Positions 8,450 to 60,400 of a stretch of 64,000 nt of DNA are shown piece after piece. The DNA comes from Loxodes magnus (taxonomy: Eukaryota; Ciliophora; Karyorelictea; Loxodida; Loxodidae). The stretch lies in assembly GCA_946699065.1 (NCBI GenBank), contig CAMPDV010000078.1, positions 434,001-498,000 on the forward strand. Direction: 5' to 3'. The notes beneath the pieces were generated by a model, which worked only from the letters and a program-made list of their open reading frames with translations, was not told the origin of the DNA and did not search any database. Both the position numbers and the translations under genes were made by a program. The first letter of the stretch is position 1. Every line of letters starts with the position of its first letter.

Positions 8450-9424
8450 ATATTAATTGATGCTATTATAATTATATAAAATTATTTCTCCGTTATTAGG
8501 GAATTTCATCCTGTCAGGATTACATCGCTTTAAACTCCTCATTTTTCGCAAAAATGTTTGGGGCAACAGGAAGATTATACGTTCCCATTCGCGGGTTTTT
8601 TAATAGGTTTTCCGTCCTACATTTCTGTCAAATCTTGGTTATAACTTCATCTACTTCCTCTTATAAATACTTCATTCTTGTTGCAAAAGAACTTTTTCAA
8701 CCTAATTTTTTCTGCTTGCTTTGTTATCAGAAATCCTGCTATTTCTATTGAAACTTCCGACTGTTCTATATAGGTGTTATTGGCTTTGTATCAAAAACAT
8801 CTCTTCCTGATCGGAATTAGTCTCATTCGAGGTTAAGCTTAGTATTCGACAACCATTGGGTTAAATCCATTATTCAGCTATTCCATTCTTGATCTTTTAG
8901 GATTTGAATTTTCTATTTTTATTTCCCTACTTAATCCCTCGACTAAGTTTTGTTCTTATCTTTGTGGTGTTGGATGCTGAAGAACACATCTATTGAGAGC
9001 TCATATTTGTCTATACAATCCCCGTCCATTTAATTATTTTCTTCTACCTTGAAAATTAGTTTTTTCGTTCAAGTTCTTCAACTTTAAACCTCTTCATGGA
9101 TGTTCACCGCATTCAATGCAAACTACGCTACATCAACTTGCTCGTAATTGAAGCATAATGATCTTAACTTGTCATGCAATAACATTTTCTGTTTCTTTCG
9201 AGGTATCTTTTCCGTGTTAAGAGTTTGTGGAATATTTTGTCATTTAGCCCGCTTTGGAAGTTGTTAGGTCTTTTATTATTTTTTTGGCTGATCAAAAAGT
9301 TGATTAAAATTAAATTAAAGACTTGAAGTTATAAGAAGTGGCATCTCGCTTCCTCTCCTCCTTTTTGTCTTTGGAAGAGGTGGTAAAGAAGCCCTATTGG
9401 ATGTTTATTCTTGTTTGGCTACAT
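8450..9424 (-). CDS. ORF1-like protein of a retroposon, broken frames
   Basis: A stretch of higher base complexity reads on the minus strand from an ATG at 9424. The N-terminus is basic and proline-rich (MQPNKNKHPIG, then LPPLPKTKRRR), followed by lysine/glutamine/glutamate-rich segments expected to form coiled coil. The reading frame shifts several times, so this is probably a decayed copy. The architecture (basic proline-rich start, coiled coil) resembles the ORF starting at 33751 (MAGKKDFLPPPQNMRKPKG). I found no reverse transcriptase or nuclease. It could alternatively be a host coiled-coil gene; no catalytic motif is visible. Confidence 0.5.
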
Positions 9425-13139: not shown

Positions 13140-13875
13140 ATAGATCCTGAGGGCGGAAAACTTAAATCTTCGGCTTCTTTTGTAAGATAGAAAAAAGGAA
13201 AATCAAGACTTGTTTAGTAAAGTTTAGTTTTAAATTGAAGCCTTAACTTCCTAATTTGAACTATTAGAAAAAAACCTAGAAGCAAATCAATAGAAAATTA
13301 AAGAAGAAATTCGATTACCAATCAAAAAAAACTAACTTCAATCAGAAAAGATGGAAATTGAAAAAATGTAAACAGAATAAAAATTTTAATTCAAGCCCTT
13401 AATAGAACGTTGCTATTGTTGTCAAAAGGCTGGACATTTTTGGAGGTAATGTCCGAAGTGAAGAAGAGTGCTTGAGCAGCACCGTAAATAATTTGGAACA
13501 TCGAGGAGGCTATATTGTAACTACTTTGGAGGTATTTACAGAAAGAAGCTGATATTAGATGATTCAAGTGTGACACTAATCAAACAGGATCTTGGTAATT
13601 AATAGTAACAGAATAAATAGCTTTAAAAGGACAACAATGACCTTAGAATTTGTTTAGAGAAGCTGGAGAAAAATTACAAGAAAATGGAAGAACAATTCTA
13701 TGAGCTTATTGAAGAGAAAGAAGAATTATCTCAGTTTGAAATTGATTCAGATGAAGACATGTACAGTTGAGTATTGAATATAGAAACTTTTATTGTCTTT
13801 AGTTTGATGAAACATTTTCTCTAATTAAAGATGACCCTAACCCTTATAGTTAAAATTAATTAATTAATTAAATAT
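13140..13875 (+). mobile_element. ORF1-type retroposon protein with CCHC knuckle
   Basis: One continuous plus-strand frame, in reassigned code, runs from about 13143 to TGA at 13768–13770. It encodes a charged coiled coil (FELLEKNLEANQQKIKEEI), then a CCHC zinc knuckle (CYCCQKAGHFWRQC: C-x2-C-x4-H-x4-C), a second coiled coil (LRICLEKLEKNYKKMEEQF) and an acidic end (FEIDSDEDMYS). Such knuckles bind nucleic acid in LINE ORF1 and gag-like proteins. About 85 bases after the stop comes a short ATTA tandem at 13857–13875, the likely tail. No upstream ATG is clear; the first in frame is near 13350, inside the coiled coil. No enzyme domain is present. Confidence 0.7.
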
Positions 13876-16106: not shown

Positions 16107-18014
16107 TCATTTTACTTCTTAAAGTTCTATTTTTTTCTCTTTTAAATCTGAACTAAAATATTTTACCTTTACTTACTTGTTCAATATATTATTTACATAC
16201 TTTCTCTACATATTTCACTTCTTCACATTTTTATCCCAACTACCTGATATTATTCACTTGTTATCACTATTAAGTGCCACACTCCTTACTTCAGCTGTAT
16301 GCCTCGTTAAAGTACATGCATATTCTCCTTTTTAGAAATTCCATATCTTTATTGATTTATCTTCGTTTCTTGATACTATAAGACTATTGTCGCTTGTAAA
16401 TGTAACTCCTCCTATTCAACCTTAATACCCTGCTATTATTCTTATACACTATCCAGTCTAAAAATTACATATCTTAATCATCTTATCAGAACTTCCAGAA
16501 ACGATTCCTCTCTGGTCACTTGATATTACTACATAATTTACAGATTATGTATGTCCCTTCAAAGTACTCTTTAACTAGTTAGCTTGTAAATTTCTTATCT
16601 TTATTGTATTATCTATACTTCCAGATACAATATAGTTGTTTTCACTTGAAATTGCTATAGATAAAACTTTACTCGTATGTCCCTACAAGGAACTTTTTAA
16701 TTAATTAGTTTTGAAATCCCAAATTTTTATCGTATTATCATAAATACCAGAAATGATTCACTTCTGGTCATTTGTTAGAACTACTAAGTAAACAGAACTA
16801 TTATTTCCAAATAAAGTACTCTTTAACTAACCGGACACTAAATCACATATCTTTATATTATTTTCATCACTTCCAGATATTATATAGTTGCTGTCACTCG
16901 ATATAGATGCAGTTAAAACAGAACTTGTATGTCCCTTCAAAGTACTCTTTAATTAGTCACTATTAAAGTCTCATATTTTTATCTTATTATCATCGCTTAC
17001 AGAAACAATTCATTTTTGTTTCTAGATATAGTTACAGATAATATATTTTTTGTATGTCCCTACCTTATTTGATCTGTGTATAAAAAGATACCTTAATCTT
17101 AAAATATTAAATTAATTAATAGCTTTCTATTAATTATTTACTGTTTTGTTTCTATATAAATATTTAAAATAAGTACATTAAATTTATGATTCTTAAGATT
17201 TTATCCATTACCTCTGAAATTTATATTAAACTTACTTCTGGTTTTTATAAATATTCTTTATAGAATTCTTGGTACATCTACTTTAATTAGTCTCTTTCTT
17301 AGATTGATATATTTTTAAATTTCATTAACTAGCTTGATAATAGTTTTATCTAACTCGTTTAATGTTTAATAATCTCTTTATGTTATTCTATCTGTCTACG
17401 GTATTCTTATATCTTACATTTAAAGTTATTGCTTAATTAAAAATAATTTTAGTCGTGGTTAATTAAAACAATATAGGCCTGCTAAGCTTTTAATATTGCA
17501 CTTTAAACTTTTTAAATTATTTAGGAATATTCTAAATTTGAAGCAACATGTCGTTTATTTCATTTCAATTAGCTTTATAACTCCTGTAATTTATTTATCT
17601 CCTTCTTTGTTGTTACTTAGTGACTTATAGTTCTTCATATATTTTAGAACTATCTGTAAATAAATAATTTTCGAGGCCCTCTAGAAGTTTATTTACTATA
17701 GCCAGCTTTATCTTTTTTATCTTCTATAACTCTTAACTTACTCTATTCTCTAATGATTTTAACTATACTATATTTGATTATTTAAAGCTTTGCTTGATAG
17801 TGTCTATTAATAGTTTATCACTTTATAATTAAGTAGGTGAGATTTAGTATGAATTTTGCAGTTAATATCCAAACATTAGATTTATTTAGACCTTAAGAAC
17901 TAGTTATGAATACACTCTTAATACATTTTATGAACTACATTCAAGTATCATAGGAACCTTCACCTAGTCATCAAAATCTCCATTACAAGCTTTACATTTG
18001 ATGCTTACGAACAT
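16107..18014 (-). CDS. RING-like finger plus seven-bladed WD40 protein
   Basis: Starts at ATG 18014 (MFVSIKCKACNGDFDD) and ends at TGA 16109–16107. The first 70 residues form a RING-type finger; one expected cysteine appears as tyrosine and small frame changes occur there. A helical middle (IVNKLLEGLENYLF, LLQIQNIPKQFKKFKVQYQ) leads to seven WD40 repeats, enough for a full propeller: for example VSGSIDNTIKIRNL and ISGSWDKNVKKWNM. Several conserved tryptophans are encoded by TGA (KWIISG is AAG-TGA-ATC) and many glutamines by TAA/TAG, which is primary evidence for the genetic code. One further base is needed at an A5 run near 17005. The layout resembles RING–coiled-coil–WD40 ubiquitin ligases; substrate unknown. 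It is a paralogue of 21037–22830. Confidence 0.85.
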
Positions 18015-37637: not shown

Positions 37638-38578
37638 ATGCAATCTCAAAACGAAAACAGTATAATAAAGATTTTATTTTTAAGAAAGATATTAAGAAAC
37701 AAAAATTAGTTAAGAAGAGAATAAACTTTAGCTAAATTCGGAATAGGTGTCACCAAATATGAAATAATTCCTAACTTAATCACATTGAGATATTTCAAAT
37801 AAATAGAAACTATTTTATGATCTTCAAATCTTAAGAAGACTTATTCATTATAGAATAAATAATTTTATTAACAAGAAATTAACATTGAAAAAACTTATGA
37901 AAGCGATACTTTCATAGAATAGATTAAAAATGAGACACTGCTTATATCTGGAGGATTTTAGAGCTGTAGATTTACTATATATTCACCAAATAAAACTGAA
38001 AACTATTAAATGTAATTTGAAAGAAGTACTCATAAAACCAATTTTAATAATAGGAATCTAATTTATATCATTTCAGGGTCTAATTCTATTGATAACGATT
38101 ATTGAATGCATGTGGCAGAATGTGAAGTATTCAATATAAGCAAAATAATTTTAGCAGAATTTAAACTATCTAAATTCCAGTTAATTTTTTTGGATGTGAC
38201 TAACATAATAAATAGATATATGTATTTGGTGGATTTAATTAGTAATAAAATTATTGTAAGGAAATTTAAGTATACGATATAATTAGCAATGAATGGAAAA
38301 TAAGTAATTTTGATCTATTTAAAGGTGGATTGTTCTCAGCAATATTTGTTCCTCAAATAAAGGCTTTTCTAATATATGCAAACTAAAAATAATTAGATAC
38401 CTTACTATTTGATTTTTAATCTATTAAAATAAAAGGTGAACCATATCCAATAAATTTGAGTACCCAATGCGATAATAGTCAACCAGTTCTAAGCAAAAAT
38501 TAGATTTTTTAATTCAATCTTGATAATATGCTACATAGTTATGATCTGAGTACTGAAAAATGAAATCTGATTCAGTGA
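37638..38578 (+). CDS. Kelch-like repeat protein
   Basis: From ATG 37638 (MQSQNENSIIKILFLRKIL) to TGA 38576–38578, about 313 residues. The N-terminal 80 residues are helical and charged; then kelch-like blades follow: NETLLISGGFQSCRFTIYS, NLIYIISGSNSIDNDYW, QIYVFGGFN followed by EIQVYDIISNEWK, and a final HSYDLSTEKWNL. Conserved glycine doublets and the tyrosine/tryptophan spacing are clear. Two kelch tryptophans (DNDYW and TEKW) are encoded by TGA, the last only five codons before the terminating TGA. One extra base is needed near 38135 to join two frames. Ciliates have many such cytosolic kelch proteins; the binding partner is unknown. Confidence 0.75.
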
Positions 38579-40704: not shown

Positions 40705-42730
40705 TCATTCTGTATCAGGTAGTTCTTTTTCATTTGGTTCTTAGTGAATTTGTCTTACAACTTAATTTAAATGGGATGTTTATTCCTTTATTTATTGATT
40801 TAATTTTTTAACTGCCACTAGTACTTTAACTTTATTGCTTGCTATGCGATTTTTTATAATTAAATCACTTAAGTTTCCAGCTGCTTCATTAATTTTTTCT
40901 GTCTCTCTTCTTTACTTTAGCTTTACATAAGATATATTCCTTGTTATATTTCCAATTCAACTTATTAAATTTATCCCTTCCATACTAACTCAGTTAATTT
41001 ATTTATAGCATATATCTTCAATGCATCACAGTTCACTTTAACTTCTTCTTCCTTGAATGGTACTTTTCCAACAAGATTCTTTACTACTAAATATATGTTT
41101 AAGTATTAACTTATTCAAACTATACTTGAAATACCTCTCTCTTTTATTCTTTACTTCCTGTTCTTCCTTACCCAGACTTTACTATATTTCCATTAATTTT
41201 TTAAATATCTCATTGATATTAATAATTAAATTCTTATGCTATCAATGATCCTTTGTAAGCAGCATCCAATTATCAACTCTTTCGAATTATTTGGCAAGAA
41301 GTGAATTGAAATTTTTAAGTTAAATTTCAATATACTTTAGCAATTTCAGCTCACATTTAGTTTTCCAATGTTTATTCAACATTTTCTGTAAAAATTTTGA
41401 TTTAATTTGTTTTAGTTATCCTATTTATTCTTATTCTTTACTTTTTCTGTTAGTACTCTTAAATTTTCTAAATCACAATTGGCATTTCCAAAGCTAAGAA
41501 TTTATATATCAACATATTTTTACTTGGCTATTTATGAAAATTATTTATAAAATTCTAGATCTTTAAGCATCTGCTTGGCAAGCTATCAGTTTCTAGAATT
41601 ATTTTTTGATCTATGACTTCCTTCACTAGCCTCTATAAATAGCTAAAAAAATAGCAGGATCTAAGGTAGAAAGGGCTCCTACTTTAATTTAGTCTATCTT
41701 ATCAAGAAGAACATATTCATTTTCTTGGATTGGAAATGAGATATATTCCCTCAAATTATTTGGGAACAATTTGCTTTTTTTCTTAGTTACTTTCAACTAA
41801 AAACTAGGACGCATCAAGGCGGTTATCTCCAAGCCTCAAAAGTCATCTTCGAAAAGTATTAAGACAGCTTTTAAGTAGGATTATTTATCATTAAGTATTT
41901 ATAACTATTTTAGTTTTATTTCACTTCCTCTTAGCGATACCAAATCGAAGTTGAAGTATCTACAACAACTATAATATATATTTGTCCTCGATTCATTCAG
42001 GCCTGATTTACTCTTCTTATACAATTTTTTATTCAAAAGGAATGTCTTTCAAATTTACGCCTAACTCTTTAAAAAATTTTAATACTTTAAGGATTCACGT
42101 ATTCATATCATTTTATCTTAGTTTTTATTAATTTTACTAGTTTTATTAAAAGTTCTAGGACATTTCTTATACTTGAAGAAGCAATTTTAATTATCTATTC
42201 GAGATTATTAGCTTAATTCCGAATAATAAGCACTTCTAGGTTAAGTGATTATATCTTTATTTTAAATAGATCTGATATTATAGAATTAAGTTTATTCTTT
42301 GAAATTAATTATTAATGTCTGTTGGAGTTTAATAACTATTATTCCATGGTATCGTATATAATTTAATTTCTTAATTATTTCGCTTAATATTATAATTGAT
42401 TCTACTCATAAAGTAGCTTCATTTAATATAACTTCTAGTTTTGAATTAAACTCATTTAATTTACCTTTCTGTTTAAATTTCTTCTGATTTAATGCTTATC
42501 TAGAAGTTTTTAATTTGGAAACTTGTTATTTCCTTACTAGCCACTTTTATAATTAAAGTTGTTTATTTGTATTACTTGAAATTAGGAAATGCATCTTCAG
42601 GAATCTATTTATCAATTTTTTAAAATTATAGCCAATCATGCCTGATTTTTAAACTCTTCTATTAAAGTAATAATTATGAACTTAAAAGTCTTCAAAATAT
42701 GTGAATGATTTAGATTTACTATAAATCTTA
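40705..42730 (-). CDS. von Willebrand factor A-like domain protein
   Basis: A long minus-strand coding region ending PNEKELPDTE-TGA at 40707–40705. The first third is helical (ALNQKKFKQKGKLNEFN, NEATLWVESIIILSEIIKKL, SSSIRNVLELLIKLVKLIK). Near 41960 a strand plus DxSxS motif, IYIIVVVDTSTS, marks a vWA metal-ion site, followed by vWA-like strands (LKAVLILFEDD, ILSFGNANCDLENLRVLTEK). The C-terminus is coiled coil (NEAAGNLSDLIIKNRIASNK). Several single-base frame changes are needed, for example in the T run after the DxSxS motif. The conserved threonine and aspartate of a full MIDAS were not located with confidence. ATG 42639 is one possible start, but the frame is open to about 42730. Confidence 0.7.
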
Positions 42731-44699: not shown

Positions 44700-46270
44700 G
44701 TGGTACCTTCAATTTTCAGAATATGTTCTTCCAATTGAAGGTATTATATTGTTTTTAAATGTTATTGTATATCAAGTTTATTGCTCTTCAGAACTAATTT
44801 TCTAGTTTAGGTTTTTTTTTCCTTCTAATTATTTCCTTTCTTGTTCATTTTCAAGCTAACTTTCATTTTTTACTATTTTCTGTTGTCAATCTTCTTCTTC
44901 TTCATCTTCGCTATCGTTTTCCTCTTCGTTCCAATCTTCTTCTTCCTCATCATTTTACATCTAATTTTGTTGGACATCTTATTCTTTGTTTTCTTGTTTT
45001 TATTATTCTTCATTCTCTTCATTAAAATTTTCTATTCTTAGATTTGCTTCTTTTTATTATTTCTCGTATTGCTCTTCTTCTTTCTCTTGTTATAGAATTT
45101 CTCGTCTCCTTTTAATAAACATTTGAATGAATATTTTTATTTATTCATCCACCATTTCTATTTTTTTCTTAGGAAAAGAGTTTATATATAGTTAATCGTA
45201 ACTTATTAGTTTCAAAATATCACATTAACCAATTTTGGAGACCAATCATTCTCTTATATCAATGTAATATATACATTCCATTACATGTTGCAGAGTGTCA
45301 TATTCTCCGCATATACAAAAAGGGTTTTCAATAATATAATTTCGATCTTTCAGAGTCTTTCGAAATGCGTAAGACTGGCTTCTAATCTTATAGATACAAA
45401 TTATTTCTTTCAAATATTTTTTGTTTAATTTCGTGTATGTTATTTTGGGGAATTATCTTAGGTTTTAAAATTGTTCTGTATATATTTATGCAGTAGGCAT
45501 TCTGCTGAATCTTGAAAGAGCTAATTCAAAATATGTCTTTTATATTTATGCCTACACATATTTACTGAATTAAATTAAGTTATTATTGTGCTCTTTATTA
45601 TCAATTTCTATTTTATAAAATGAGGCCAGTTTCTAAACTTCATCATAATATTGATATCCCTCTTTATAATTATTCTCTTTCTTAAAACTTATTTGTATTA
45701 TCTTATATCTTATATAAATATGCTTTAGGTAAAATCAACTTAATATATATTTAGCTTTAATTTATTTCAAATTCTAAAAAGGAGTAATTACAACTCAAAA
45801 TTTTTATAAATACCTAGATAAAAGATTTTATTGTGCTTTAAATAATCAGATTAAATTAAATAAAAGAACCAATAGATAATTTACTTAATTTAAGAAATAA
45901 AAGGATTTAATTATTACTAATATAAAAAAAATAAAGCCTTTTTATTTAAACTTAGTTTTTATCTCTTCTTAATCATTAATAACTAAATACCTTGAAATTG
46001 GTTAAGAGAAATATAAGATAATATTCAATAGCCTAATTAACTAATAAAATACTATATTCTTAAATTATATTTCGAAATATGTAAATTCTAACTTCTTCAG
46101 TTTTCTTTGGATATCTGCAAAGAATTTGTTAAGTTTAACTAGAAAGAAATGCTATATAATAAAGCTAAATCTACATTATATTGCTTCTATAATTTTATAT
46201 CTCTATAAATTAATAAAAAATTGGTTTATATCTAATTTTAAAGATTTTTTAAAAAGGATAAAAAGCAAAA
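44700..46270 (-). mobile_element. LINE ORF2 3' fragment: reverse transcriptase end and zinc motif
   Basis: On the minus strand this reads as the C-terminal part of a non-LTR reverse transcriptase. About 46150–45800 holds thumb-like sequence (NKFFADIQRKLKKLEFTYF; YLGIYKNFE with the usual YLG). Next comes a connecting region (YFELALSRFSRMPTAQIYTE, KLNKKYLKEIICIYKIRSQS) and a typical C-terminal zinc motif, CICGEYDTLQHVMEC (C-x-C-x7-H-x4-C). It ends in a very acidic glutamate-rich tail (DEEEEDWNEEENDSEDEEEE) and a TGA at 44774–44772. A degraded YxDD-like site may lie near 46200. The element is 5'-truncated and no endonuclease is seen. This is the only reverse-transcriptase-like sequence I found in the window. 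Confidence 0.75.
44704..44743. terminator. Perfect 11-bp inverted repeat at the LINE 3' end
   Basis: TACCTTCAATT and its exact complement AATTGAAGGTA are separated by 18 bases, so RNA from either strand could form a strong hairpin. It lies about 30 bases beyond the LINE ORF stop on the minus strand and may be its 3' recognition or end structure. The terminator label is only the nearest available type. Confidence 0.6.
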
Positions 46271-47470: not shown

Positions 47471-47829
47471 AATTATATTATTTAATATTTAATATTCTAC
47501 AAACACTCTTCTACAAACTTGTTTAATTTTAGGTTAGAAGTAAATAACCTATCTTTAGTTTTTGACTTTTCTCTTTCTTTTACTAAGTTATAAATGCTAG
47601 ATTTAAAATAATTTAGCTATAAAGTTTATTTGATTAGATTTATTTATTTTCTAATTTAAGAATCAAATTATTTATATATTAATTCTATATCTTCCTCTAT
47701 ATATCGATCATACTTTAAGTCTAAGATTTTTTAGATTCATTTATTTTTTACTACATAACAAATTTTAAAAATGAAGCTTCTTTTAATATTTTTAAATTTA
47801 TAGGAACTAATTTAAAACAAAATCAGGAT

Positions 47830-48720
47830 TTAGATCAGAATTTTTCCCGGAACCAAAAAAGGCAGGAGTTAACGATATCCTAGAGAAAATAGAACCTGAA
47901 AAAGGGAATTAAAAAAGTCATCCGTCAAATCGAATCTCCCACTTCTGAATAAAAGCCTAGGAAATAGACTTAAGTACTCTGCGCTCGAAAGTCTTAAGTC
48001 TCACCACAAAGGAGTAAATAAACTATGATTAGCTGATAAAAATGTGCTGGATCTCCAGGAAGAGGTAAAAAAATTGAACAAAGATGATAAGAGACTGATG
48101 GAAAAACTTGAAAATACAGAGGAAATAGAATCGATACTCATTACATATGAAAGAGACCTTAATGCATTTTGAAATATTTCACAAGATCAGATCAATTAAT
48201 CATAGCATTAACAAAAGAAGCAGAAAGAACGTCTAAAAATAAAAAAATAGAAGAAAATCAGCAAAAATTGCAACGTTAAATGGACCTATAATAATAAGGA
48301 AATGACCCAATGATAATCGAAGGAGAAAAAACTCAAGACTCAAACCTAAACGAGAATTAAAAAGAAGCTATTATTGTAATTCTCGAACACATCTACGAAA
48401 AACATACTAGAAATTTCATAACTTTGAATAAGAATACTGAAACTACTAGAATAAATTGAAGAATAAAAAGAAGATACAACAACAACTAAAACAAAAAAGA
48501 AAAGAAAAAGATTATATTGAAAAAAATTTGTAAAAATATACAATAAGAAAGATATCAATCATTATCTAGACGAAAGTATACATCAGTGAAAATATGCATA
48601 CAAAGAAAAGAGTTGTCATTACATTCAAACTTTTATATTTAGCCTCTTGAAAAATTTAGAGGAAGGCAGGAAAGAGGTTGAAAAACTCTAAGAATGTCAA
48701 ACATTTAATTTTGGATTTTT
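47830..48720 (+). mobile_element. ORF1-like coiled-coil element
   Basis: A plus-strand region of higher complexity: LPLLNKSLGNRLKYSALESL, LDLQEEVKKLNKDDKRLMEK and ERDLNAFWNISQDQ, then further charged helical sequence up to about 48700 (PLEKFRGRQERG). The ERDxNAFWNISQxQ motif links it to the remnant at 36130–36336. The start is not fixed. No zinc knuckle or enzyme was found. A helical coiled-coil protein of this kind fits the other ORF1-only elements. Confidence 0.6.
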
Positions 48721-49789: not shown

Positions 49790-50385
49790 TATTGATATAA
49801 ATAATTAGTTATTATAGGATATTAAAGTCTAGGTTTGGAGTAGCTTTGTTGCTCAATAATTTGAAGCAGTTTAATATAAATAGAAAGTTATTCTAAGAAA
49901 ATAATTAACTAATAAGATTTTAACTATCTTAATCAAAAGTTAAAGAAAAAGATGTGCTAATCTTCTCACTATCTAGTAGTTTGATTTTTCAAGTGGATTA
50001 GATAATATTAATCTTTTTCAGAAAGCAAAAAACTTATTTTTAGCTTTTAAGTCATATATGAATTGGCACTACAGATCCAAGTTATATTTTTATATAAATG
50101 ATATTAATAGTTATTTGAAAGCAAGCCTAATAATATCTATTAGCTTGAGATTTGATAAAACTTAATCTGATTAACAACAAGAAGATATGGGAAATAACTT
50201 AGAGATTATGTTATATCTAATGTCTGAGAATTAATATTATAATTTTGAGGCACTCTACTAGTTTCTTAAATGATTTGATTTTAATTTTAATTTGTTCGAA
50301 ATAAACTTGTGGTTCCAAAATAAAAGAAATAAGGAGAAGAATTATTAAGTTAGTAAATTAATTGAAAAGTTAAGATCTAAAGGTG
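49790..50385 (+). CDS. Hypothetical protein, function not recognised
   Basis: A clean plus-strand frame of about 190 codons with helical, well-mixed composition: SSFVAQQFEAVQYKQKVILR, KAKNLFLAFKSYMNWHYRSK, DMGNNLEIMLYLMSENQYYN, FEALYQFLKWFDFNFNLFE and a lysine-rich end. One tryptophan (FLKW) is TGA. No start codon is evident; the frame is preceded by TTATTATAG, which could be a 3' splice site. It is convergent with the RING–MORN gene, the two meeting near a T9 run at 50393. Family not recognised. Confidence 0.5.
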
Positions 50386-50389
50386 AAAA

Positions 50390-52313
50390 ACTTTTTTTTT
50401 CCATTATCCCAAGTTTCTTCCTTAGCCTTTCCCTTATTGTCAGTGAAAAATACTTTTCCTTCTAATTTATTTTGATTTCATCATCCTTCATGCTTTGATC
50501 CGTCCTAATGTATTAAGATTCCATATCCATGGTACTTGTCTTTTTACCATTCTCCTTAGTATTTTTCGTTATTCGGAAAATAGAAAATTCCTTTTCCTTA
50601 TTTTTTGCCTTACTCTCAAAATCCATCGTATTTGGCTCCATCACTTCAAGCATAAACTCCATTTCCGTGTATTCAATCTTGGTAAAAATTACCTTCATAT
50701 TTTTCACCTTTTGAAACATTGAAGATACCAAGGCCTTATTTCATTCCATTTTCTCATTATCCTTCATATTTATCACCATTTCTATATAAAATTTATCCTT
50801 TGCCATGTCTTTTATCCTAAAAGAATTCTCCTTCGTATTTACTTCCATCTTCAAAACAGCAAGATCCTTAGCCTTATCTCTTATCTTCAATTCAATTTCC
50901 CTCGTATTTATCACCTATTTCGCTTCTAGAAACTCCTCTCCCATGCTTTTTATCTTGTAGCCATTCTCCATCATATACTTCGCAATTTGCAGAATAAAAT
51001 TTTCCTTTACCTTGTTTTTTACCTTCAACTCATTAGCCTTCATAACAGCTTCTATCTTTCCAACTTAAATTTCCAGTTCCATGCATTAAATCATTAAGTC
51101 ATTCACCTTCATAAGTACTTTCATCTTAAAAATGTTGAATTCCTTTACCTTACTTTTTATCTTCTTTTCAATTTCCTAAATATTTATCTCCCTTCTTATT
51201 TTTAAATTCTCCATAACCATGCTTTTTGTTATTCAACCAATCACCTTCATATTCTCCTTCCTTTGTATTTAAATTTCCTTTTCCATTCTTTTAATCTTCA
51301 ACTCATTAACCTAAATATATATCTCCATTTGAATATCATTGTTCACCTTGACCATGTCTTTTATCTTCGAATCAATCACCTTCATATCTCTCTCCATTCT
51401 TCAAACTTAATGTTCCCTTTAAATGTTTCTTATCTTTTATCCAGAATCCTATGTATTAATCACCGTTTACATATTTTTAAATACCGTAACTATGTCTTTA
51501 ATCTTGAAGTCACTTTCCTTCGTAAATATCACCATTTTAATATTTTTAGATTCCTTTACCTTATTTTAAATCTTCTGCTCATTGTCCTTCATATTCATTT
51601 CCAGTTACTTATTTAAAAATTCCTTATCCTTATTTTTTATCTTGATACCAATCTCCTTCATAATAATCTCCATTTTAACAGGAATATTTTCCTTATCCCT
51701 ACCTTGTATTATTAAATCATGTGCCAATGTATTAATCGCCATTTTTATATTTGAAAATTCCATTTCCATGCATTTTATCTTCAAACCACTCTCCTTCATA
51801 GGTTTCACCATTTTAGAAAGTTAAAATTCCCGTTCCATGTCTCTAATCTTAATTTCATTATCCTTCATATTTATCTCCATTCTTATATTTATAAATACCT
51901 TTTCCATGTCTTTAATTTTAAAAGTAATCCCCTTCATATATTTCTCAGTTTTCATATTAAAAAGGTTCATTTTATAAGTTTTCATTGAATAAAGAAACTT
52001 AATAATTTTAAGCACATTGCTATATTTCACTTGTTTCATATATTTAGTTCAAGTCTTGCGTTTCTTTTGAAAATTCTTTGCCTTGATATTCAATTTTTAT
52101 TAGTTACTCCATTATCACTTCATCTCTTTGCAAATATACAGGATTTTCTTTCGATTCGAATTAACATACAGCACATTTATTTTCATTTTTATCTTAGAAT
52201 TCATTAAGTAGACATAATAAGCAAAAATTATGACTACACTAGAGCTTAACAGGAACATTGTCCTTAGTATCATATTCCTTTTAACATAGCATACAACTCT
52301 TGCCTTGATTCAT
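50390..52313 (-). CDS. RING finger–MORN repeat protein
   Basis: From ATG 52313 an uninterrupted minus-strand frame of about 640 codons. Residues 7–50 are a C3HC4-type RING (CMLCQKEYD … LQCSHNFCLLCLLNEF … CAVC), expected to bind an E2 enzyme and make it a ubiquitin ligase. A linker of about 60 residues leads to about 22 MORN repeats of 23 residues (YEGEWFEDKMHGNG, YEGDWYQDKKQGQG, YDGFWEQGKKQGKG), which usually bind membranes or scaffold the cortex. More than ten of the conserved MORN tryptophans are TGA and many Gln are TAA/TAG, giving the strongest evidence for the code. No frame break in 1.9 kb. The C-terminus (KAKEETWDNGKK) is clear but the stop codon was not found; it may lie beyond an A9 run. 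Confidence 0.93.
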
Positions 52314-58309: not shown

Positions 58310-60400
58310 ATTTTATTACAGAAACTAGAGCTATTGAAATTCCTATCCAAAAATTAATTCCAGAAACTTCTTTTTACTTTCCTTATAAACTCTTTGGCTA
58401 AGAGGATTCAATACTTTACTTTTAGATCGTTGTTGTTTGCTATATCAACCCTACTGGACATATAAAACTAGAAAAACATTCAAGACAGAATGAAGTTCCT
58501 TCTTAGTCACTAAAAAATCCTTCTGGACATGGTAAACATTATTTATGAGAGTAAGCACCGGAATAGAATTGTTCAGTTCCTTTATCGCAAAGTTAGCATT
58601 GGTGGTTTGAATTAGAAAATGTGCCTCGAGGACATAGTTCACATTCTCCTTTTTCATTTTCATAAGTTCCTTAGCTGCAAGGCCATCCACATAACATTTC
58701 GTCTTTTTCGCATTTATTTGGAATTTCATAAATTCAGAATTCATTTTACGCTCTTTTATTAATACTCGATAGACCTTTTACATAAGCAACTCCAAAAAGT
58801 AGTAACTTTCTCTTATAATAAGCCATTGCAAATCCATACATTCGTGGTGGCCAGTTTTATTCTTCTTACTACTGTATCTTCTGATAAGTTTATTTATCTT
58901 TTTCTAATTTTCAACGTGAAGATCATTTTCAGGTTAAATTTCTCATTCTAAACCTCCGTAAAAATATAGATAATTATCAATAGCTCCAAATCCTGCTTTT
59001 ACTTTTCCATCGATTTTTTGTCCAAGCATGAAATATTCCTACTTTATATCATAAATCAGAACATTGCCATTATTTATGTCTTGACTATTTTGACCCTAGA
59101 TGATGTATAATTTCTTTTCGAATTCATGCATATTGTAAAAGAATAATTAAAAAGGTCTTGGTCCATTTTCATTTAGCAAGGTTCATACAGTAGTTCCTAT
59201 ATCATATTTTCACAACTCATTTATAATTAATGAATCTGTTTTCCTTCCAAAAATAAGCTTAACTCTCTCAGACATTACTCCACATGCCCCATATCTTCCT
59301 TAAGGAGGATCTATTTGTTTTATTGTTTATCAATCTCTACTGACTGTATTATATCCATACTATGAAGTTAAATTGGTTCGGGAGCATCAAAATTGTTGGA
59401 AAAACTTTTCATTCGAGATGTTACTTTGATAGATCTAAGGAGGCTATTCCATTTAATAAATTTTTTGCTTACTAACCAAAAGATATTCATACTTTGTTAT
59501 TATAGCAAGCAGAGATCATAGAGTTTCTTTGAGGTCTTGCCAGATACTTATTTTTAATAGATCATGCTTCAAATTATAAGGATCTAAAAAATCTAACTCC
59601 CAAACCTCTTCCTGATTTTTTTCTTCAGTACCTAAACAACCAGATGTTAGATAAAATTTTTTTCTATCTTAGAAGAAGCATGCTCCTAATAAGATTTAGT
59701 CAGTTGGATGTGGATTAATATTCACTTTTCTTCAAGCTTTACTTTTCAAATCTAGGATATCAAAATCTCTGATGTTCCTGAGTTTTTACTATTATCTCGT
59801 CTCTAGCAGCAATCATGCTAGCATAGCCTTATTTTTGAGGTGGGTTTCCTGCAGCTTTTATTTGTGTTCAGTTGCTTTTTATGGAATTAAAAACCCATAC
59901 GTCATTTAAATCACTATAAGTTCCTCTTCCACTAAAAATATAGAAAAGAAAACCTTCACTTTCTTAATAAGTAATGACAGAAGCTGCCAAATATCTTTAA
60001 GGAGGACGCACTCCATTTCTATAATTGGTTCCCAACTTTAAATTTCAACTTAGAACTTCCATAAATCGTTTTGTATCCCATAATTAGTTTGACCTCCAAA
60101 TACAATCATAACCTCTTCATCTTCATAGAATTAAGCACAAGATTCATAACGAGATTCAGGCTTTACTTCATTAGATAATGGTAAGAATTGTCATTTTTCA
60201 TGGTTCATATCAAACTTCCAAGTGTCATCAAGAATATCAGATTCAACTCCTTTTCCCATAGATACCAAGAAATATCCTCTCTATTAACTTGTAGCTCCTA
60301 AAGCATAAAATCTTTTATTTGGAGGACCTAGAGTTTCAGGAAAGAAACTCCATTGAGAAAGAAATAGAGATAAAACGCTTGCAAGGAGAAGACCAAACAT
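58310..60400 (-). CDS. Secreted or membrane kelch protein with cysteine-rich GCC2/GCC3-type domain
   Basis: ATG 60400 opens a signal peptide (MFGLLLASVLSLFLSQW). Kelch blades follow (DDTWKFDMNHEKWQFLPL, MIVFGGQTNYGIQNDLWKF, SGRGTYSDLNDVWVFNS, DNYLYFYGGLE), forming an extracellular propeller. A cysteine-rich segment (GTYENEKGECELCPRGTFSN, QCQLCDKGTEQFYSGAYS, QCLPCPEGFFSDQEGTSFC) matches the ephrin-receptor-like repeats common in ciliate surface proteins. At the end GINFWIGISIALVSVI starts a membrane helix, after which the DNA becomes featureless. Kelch tryptophans at NHEKW and SNWTQI are TGA. Several extra single bases are needed, for example in AAA near 60020 and in A4 and T4 runs near 59770–59790. 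The end of the gene is not located. Confidence 0.85.

Follow-up and report, generated by a model that had tools for sequence, protein, structure and literature searches.

UGA as sense codon and stop, and UAA as a possible minor stop, in a genomic region of Loxodes magnus

Genes of the window and their in-frame stop codons

The window, a 64,000-nucleotide stretch of Loxodes magnus DNA (contig C78, positions 434001–498000), contains a RING–MORN gene, a WD40 gene, a kelch-repeat gene region, and four further probable gene ends at TGA (Table 1). The assembly searched comprises 705,730,643 bases in 7843 contigs; the published account gives 706 Mbp for the MAC assembly of L. magnus (PMC11441545). 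The left end of the window (positions 1–2000) has a strong GC skew of 0.53 and a G+C content of 17%.

Table 1 Features of the window discussed in the text
Feature	Position	Strand	Remarks
RING–MORN gene	50370..52313	-	Proposed stop TAA at codon 648, after 647 sense codons
TGA TGA, codons 611–612	50478..50483	-	Read as Trp-Trp; the second lies at a MORN Trp position
Proposed UAA stop of RING–MORN gene	50370..50372	-	Codon 648; preceding 35 codons free of TAA, TAG and TGA
First in-frame TGA past MORN domain	50052..50054	-	Codon 754; stop if UAA cannot terminate
WD40 gene	16107..18014	-	In-frame TAA, TAG and TGA; ends at TGA 16107–16109
Kelch-repeat gene region	58406..60388	-	Read with code 27; PF24681, E=3.1e-26
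Probable TGA gene end	13768..13770	+	Composition only; coding stretch from about 13147
Probable TGA gene end	38576..38578	+	Composition only
Probable TGA gene end	40705..40707	-	Composition only
Probable TGA gene end	44772..44774	-	Composition only

Translation with NCBI code 27 followed by profile searches, as proposed in a preliminary description of the window, recovered MORN repeats in 14 stretches of the RING–MORN gene (Pfam, E=5.2e-97), the WD40 domain (PF00400, E=4.6e-49), and kelch repeats. RING models matched the RING–MORN gene with E-values of 2.6e-5 to 1.1e-4, matches that do not reach the curated cut-offs of Pfam. The scored stretch of the kelch region (58496–60298) contains nine TGA, seventeen TAA, and eight TAG codons in frame. 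In-frame stop codons had been claimed for WD40, kelch, and vWA genes; the first two were borne out, and there was no vWA match in the nineteen coding stretches scanned, which were delimited by ab initio codon-usage segmentation and cover part of the window. The same description listed five open reading frames that appear to end at TGA (13768, 16107, 38576, 40705, and 44772). The triplet is present at all five positions, and the G+C content drops across each of them from 0.25–0.33 to 0.12–0.19. With the exception of that of the WD40 gene, their assignment as gene ends is by composition only. The codon-usage stretches overrun four of the five TGAs by 12 to 84 bases, and at 38576 the segmentation found no codon-usage stretch.

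The RING–MORN frame runs on the minus strand from the ATG at 52313 to 50391 and has 641 codons counted from the ATG. It is open as described earlier, when no strand was given, and there is no TGA at 50390, the end assigned to it then. Codons 1–641 include 18 TGA, 40 TAA, and 6 TAG codons, so that TAA and TAG do occur throughout the approximately 640-codon frame. The numbers expected from base composition for ordinary codons are 20.5, 48.0, and 9.7, respectively, and are close to those counted; therefore, the three codons are not avoided in the frame.

The placement of the TGA codons was compared with the MORN motif after masking all stop codons and leaving motif position 5 free; the null distribution was obtained by placing the 18 TGAs at random in 20,000 trials. 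The masked motif identified 18 repeats, in which position 5 is occupied by TGA in ten, TGG in five, and Tyr or Phe in three. Ten of the 18 TGAs thus lie at the MORN tryptophan position, compared with 0.5 expected and a random maximum of five. Three more TGAs (codons 268, 337, and 612) are located at MORN tryptophan positions as judged by eye, which agrees with the earlier count of more than ten TGA-encoded MORN tryptophans. UGA appears from these positions to encode tryptophan.

The RING–MORN gene and its flanks are present in the assembly in six near-identical copies (L042–L047 and L059) on contigs C78 (two), C158, C182 (two), and C201. The region is a recent segmental duplication. The copy on C201 is represented by two overlapping matching pieces, as if it were partly repeated. 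Decay of pseudogenes or errors of assembly could also place stop codons in frame, and the position of the gene within a recent multi-copy duplication would fit decay. Nevertheless, this explanation is extremely improbable: the five full-length copies are each 1923 bases long and ungapped, their pairwise dN/dS values are 0.09–0.48, with few changes behind them (0.45–0.73 in comparisons with L059, for which 171 codons were compared), and in-frame stop codons also occur in the conserved histone and eRF1 genes.

Codon meaning and gene ends in histone and Rab genes

Eleven H3 genes were aligned to a human H3 sequence. Glutamine columns of the alignment accommodate 18/36 TAA and 17/23 TAG codons, together with 20/34 CAA and 5/6 CAG codons. 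The sharing of H3 columns by TAA and TAG with CAA and CAG suggests that UAA and UAG encode glutamine.

The ends of histone genes were determined for 29 of 31 matches; the other two were excluded as copies because of their equal scores. Twenty-seven of the genes end with TGA, two with TAA, and none with TAG, a count that is not blind because the ends were set by eye on code-27 translations and by alignment of paralogues. Over their final 20 codons, the 29 genes together have two TAA codons against 55 in earlier positions (Fisher p=0.014 among glutamine codons; the value overstates independence, because the histone genes are paralogues). TAG is not depleted, with six codons in the last 20 positions against 44 earlier (p=1.0). 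Depletion of TAA and not of TAG before gene ends has been published for L. magnus (PMC11441545), and the histone data repeat this pattern.

Other conserved termini also point to TGA as a gene end. Among 150 Ras-family matches, the eight with the best scores were read at their cysteine tails; TGA is present there in all of them, and in two of the eight a TAG precedes it. These two Rab genes (L098 and L099) carry the TAG directly 5' of the TGA, an arrangement that does not discriminate for or against UAG termination. A pattern for the H4 terminus had ten matches, nine with TGA and one with TAA; the one of the nine that was checked is H4, and the apparent TAA-ended H4 was rejected, since its sequence proved not to be H4. 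The gene ends taken together suggest that UGA also terminates translation.

A genome-wide search with a putative actin-type C-terminus pattern (HRKCF) gave 85 matches compared with three in the control. The next codon, counted by hand, is TGA in 59 matches, TAA in 21, TAG in one, and TGG in four; the matches are unconfirmed as actins and were left out of the evidence on stop codons, and 14 of the 21 followed by TAA are one identical string.

The combination of sense and stop meanings resembles NCBI table 27, the code of Parduczia sp. and Loxodes magnus, in which UAA and UAG are glutamine and UGA is both tryptophan and the main stop. In its published form for L. magnus, UGA is tryptophan or stop, is the only stop codon, and is read as tryptophan when it lies far enough upstream of the poly(A) (PMC11441545). 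Also shared with this published system are the depletion of TAA, not TAG, before gene ends and 3' flanks of low G+C content. The lack of a dedicated stop codon is a likeness to table 28 of Condylostoma magnum. If all three codons both coded and terminated, as they do in Condylostoma, TAA could be expected at some gene ends, and it ends two of the 29 histone genes and probably the MORN genes. However, C. magnum recognizes all three stops, whereas TAG ends none of the 29 histone genes and is not depleted near their ends (a small sample from one gene class), which makes a table 28 code very unlikely here.

Decoding machinery: tRNAs and eRF1

A tRNA-Trp-like pattern had 126 matches in the assembly and one in the control, and all 100 matches listed have the anticodon CCA. 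Among these 100 tRNA-Trp(CCA) matches, 98 are one string with C43 and the other two (L073 and L074, on contig C110) have five base pairs in the anticodon stem. Two of the 98 were examined fully, and both have the CCA anticodon and a broken 27–43 pair (A27–C43 in L072 and T27–C43 in L075). Since A27 or T27 is opposed to C43, the anticodon stem of these tRNAs has four base pairs. Four-base-pair stems in Loxodes are already reported in two papers, which cite an eLife critique (PMC13092985, PMC12005148). L072 and L075 belong to long tandem arrays on contigs C67 and C148, with spacings of about 187 and 241 bp. The dosage of these arrays is high for a tRNA that reads one codon and is perhaps linked to the reading of UGA. 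An elongator tRNA with the anticodon UCA gave no matches to the one pattern used, and the 100 listed of the 126 tRNA-Trp-like matches are the ones covered.

Three tRNA-Sec genes (L116, L117, and L118) exceed the Rfam cut-off, and all have the anticodon UCA; therefore, UGA may have a third meaning, selenocysteine. A search pattern covering the anticodons UUA and CUA had 261 tRNA matches against 19 in the control, and one of each type was examined fully. ARAGORN names these tRNAs by their anticodons only, so their glutamine identity is putative.

The eRF1 gene (L010) differs from an eRF1 of solved structure in the motifs TASNIKS, NIKSRVNRLS, and YLCDNKF, which are changed to RAQNIKS, NIKSRAVQKA, and FLCENTF, respectively. 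Loxodes eRF1 has alanine in the position of human Ser70, which is equivalent to Ser67 of yeast eRF1. The terminal TGA of the gene is followed by two more in the same frame. About 35 kb from it on contig C196 lies L011, which by its score looks like a second eRF1 copy. Another locus from the eRF1 search, L009, was set aside, as by eye it reads like Pelota, and L010 was taken as eRF1.

Based on these genes and the published work, a decoding mechanism can be proposed. UAA and UAG would be read as glutamine by tRNAs dedicated to them, with the anticodons UUA and CUA, and UGA would be read as tryptophan by tRNA-Trp(CCA) with the anticodon stem shortened to four base pairs. The roles of the four-base-pair tRNA as the UGA reader and the charging of the UUA and CUA tRNAs with glutamine are suggested by analogy with published work on Loxodes and related ciliates. 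At a UGA close to the 3' end of the mRNA, eRF1 may outcompete the tRNA with support from the poly(A) tail and terminate translation; the distance to the poly(A) as the deciding signal is taken from the same body of work and is supported here indirectly by the depletion of TAA. The codon meanings by position, the gene ends, the tRNA genes, the eRF1 changes, and the depletion of TAA before gene ends were obtained here. Blastocrithidia offers a parallel, since it decodes UGA by a tRNA-Trp(CCA) with a four-base-pair stem (PMC13092985) and uses UAA as both sense codon and stop (PMC12153298). It differs in that its UAR codons are glutamate and its stop is UAA, whereas UAR is glutamine and UGA is the main stop in Loxodes.

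We conclude with high confidence that the genes of the window follow NCBI table 27, the karyorelict nuclear code of Loxodes magnus, with context-dependent UGA. The preliminary claim that all three standard stop codons are sense codons and that TGA is both tryptophan and stop agrees with the TGAs at MORN tryptophan positions (ten against 0.5 expected), the H3 columns, and the TGA at 27 of 29 histone ends.

UAA as a candidate second stop codon

The expectation of a stop at TGA fails for the very gene on which the earlier claim was centered: no TGA stands at the end of the RING–MORN gene; past the repeats a TAA (codon 648) is reached first, and the first TGA only at codon 754. The repeats extend to NGKKK (codon 641), and six codons later the TAA follows. 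The stop-free run of 35 codons before it proves little alone, because the gene has four more runs, 26 to 45 codons long, that equally lack TAA, TAG, and TGA. If UGA were the sole stop, as stated for table 27 (PMC11441545), the gene would have to end at the tandem TGATGA of codons 611–612 or at the TGA of codon 754. The tandem is the less likely end of the gene, since the sequence past codon 612 matches, at the protein level, the terminal repeat of the homologue L062 (27 of the 29 codons to 641 were compared). In these 27 codons, 9.5 of 14.2 synonymous and 17.5 of 66.8 non-synonymous sites are changed. Similar terminal repeats are followed by TAA in L062 (NGIKK-TAA) and in L064 (NGKKI-TAA-TAA, with a TGA a few codons on), and by TGA in L063 and its near-identical copy L069 (NGKNIL-TGA). 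The end of L065 differs (ENW-TGA, with a TAA eight codons on), and in L066, L067, L070, and L071 this terminal repeat was not recognizable. Read-through to a later TGA is opposed by the copies of the gene, because the frame beyond the TAA is broken by 1-nt deletions, with an 81-nt length difference, in three of the five other copies, whereas the compared coding part is ungapped. Three copies reach their first in-frame TGA at codon 754 and two at codon 792; the nearer TGA of L059, at codon 683, would suit UGA as the sole stop. The RING–MORN gene most likely ends at the UAA of codon 648, as judged from these sequence comparisons.

The two TAA-ended histone genes belong to one subfamily of H3 variants. 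L084 ends with LTDV-TGA, L083 with LTDM-TAA-NLNY-TGA, and L086 with LTDM-TAA-TAA-TAA, carrying TAATAATAA at the site of the TGA of its paralogue. The TGA of L083 five codons after the TAA, and the 27 of 29 histone ends with TGA, are compatible with UGA as the only stop; L086 would then be an H3 variant with a long tail. However, its TAA lies exactly at the site of the TGA of L084, from which it differs with dN 0.014 and dS 1.12, indicating strong purifying selection, and its first in-frame TGA is more than 160 codons past the TAA. No GT–AG interval of 15–30 nt begins within the first 200 nt of this tail. UAA most likely terminates translation in L086, because a histone with such a long tail is implausible. 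L086 is the one UAA-ended histone gene wholly without a nearby TGA. Given these comparisons and those of the MORN copies and homologues, UGA as the sole stop is unlikely.

It is reasonably likely that UAA acts as a true second stop in Loxodes, with UGA and UAA having dual meanings and UAG being purely glutamine, a code between tables 27 and 28. In conserved genes, TAA would then have replaced TGA at the end, and UAA would still be a frequent glutamine codon. Continued recognition of UAA by the release factor would account for the removal of coding UAA, but not of UAG, from the ends of genes. A small proportion of genes appear to terminate at UAA, namely the H3 variant and probably the RING–MORN gene.

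Two ab initio stretches of the window, 8485–9417 on the minus strand and 47803–48702 on the plus strand, stop one or two codons short of a TAA, with the next in-frame TGA 128 and 76 codons away, respectively. They are further candidates for UAA-ended genes, and neither stretch had a Pfam match. Segmentation stretches were not counted for stops, because they may stop at exon boundaries and they overrun known TGAs.

A karyorelict paper by Seah et al. (2022) reportedly contains a tentative mention of a small minority of UAA stops. The limited part of the literature searched yielded no statement on UAA stops in Loxodes. The context-dependent termination attributed to the window at the outset is the karyorelict code already published for Loxodes magnus, and it is amended here in two respects: no TGA terminates the RING–MORN gene, and UAA seems to serve as a minor stop. 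The code itself is thus known; the addition made here is UAA appearing to end a few genes, unlike in table 27 with UGA as the only stop (PMC11441545).

Genomic sequence alone confirms that the window needs a context-dependent code, and a gene caller using the standard code would split such genes at each in-frame stop. A UAA-ended histone provides a clean natural test of the loss of other stops by the eRF1 of karyorelicts.
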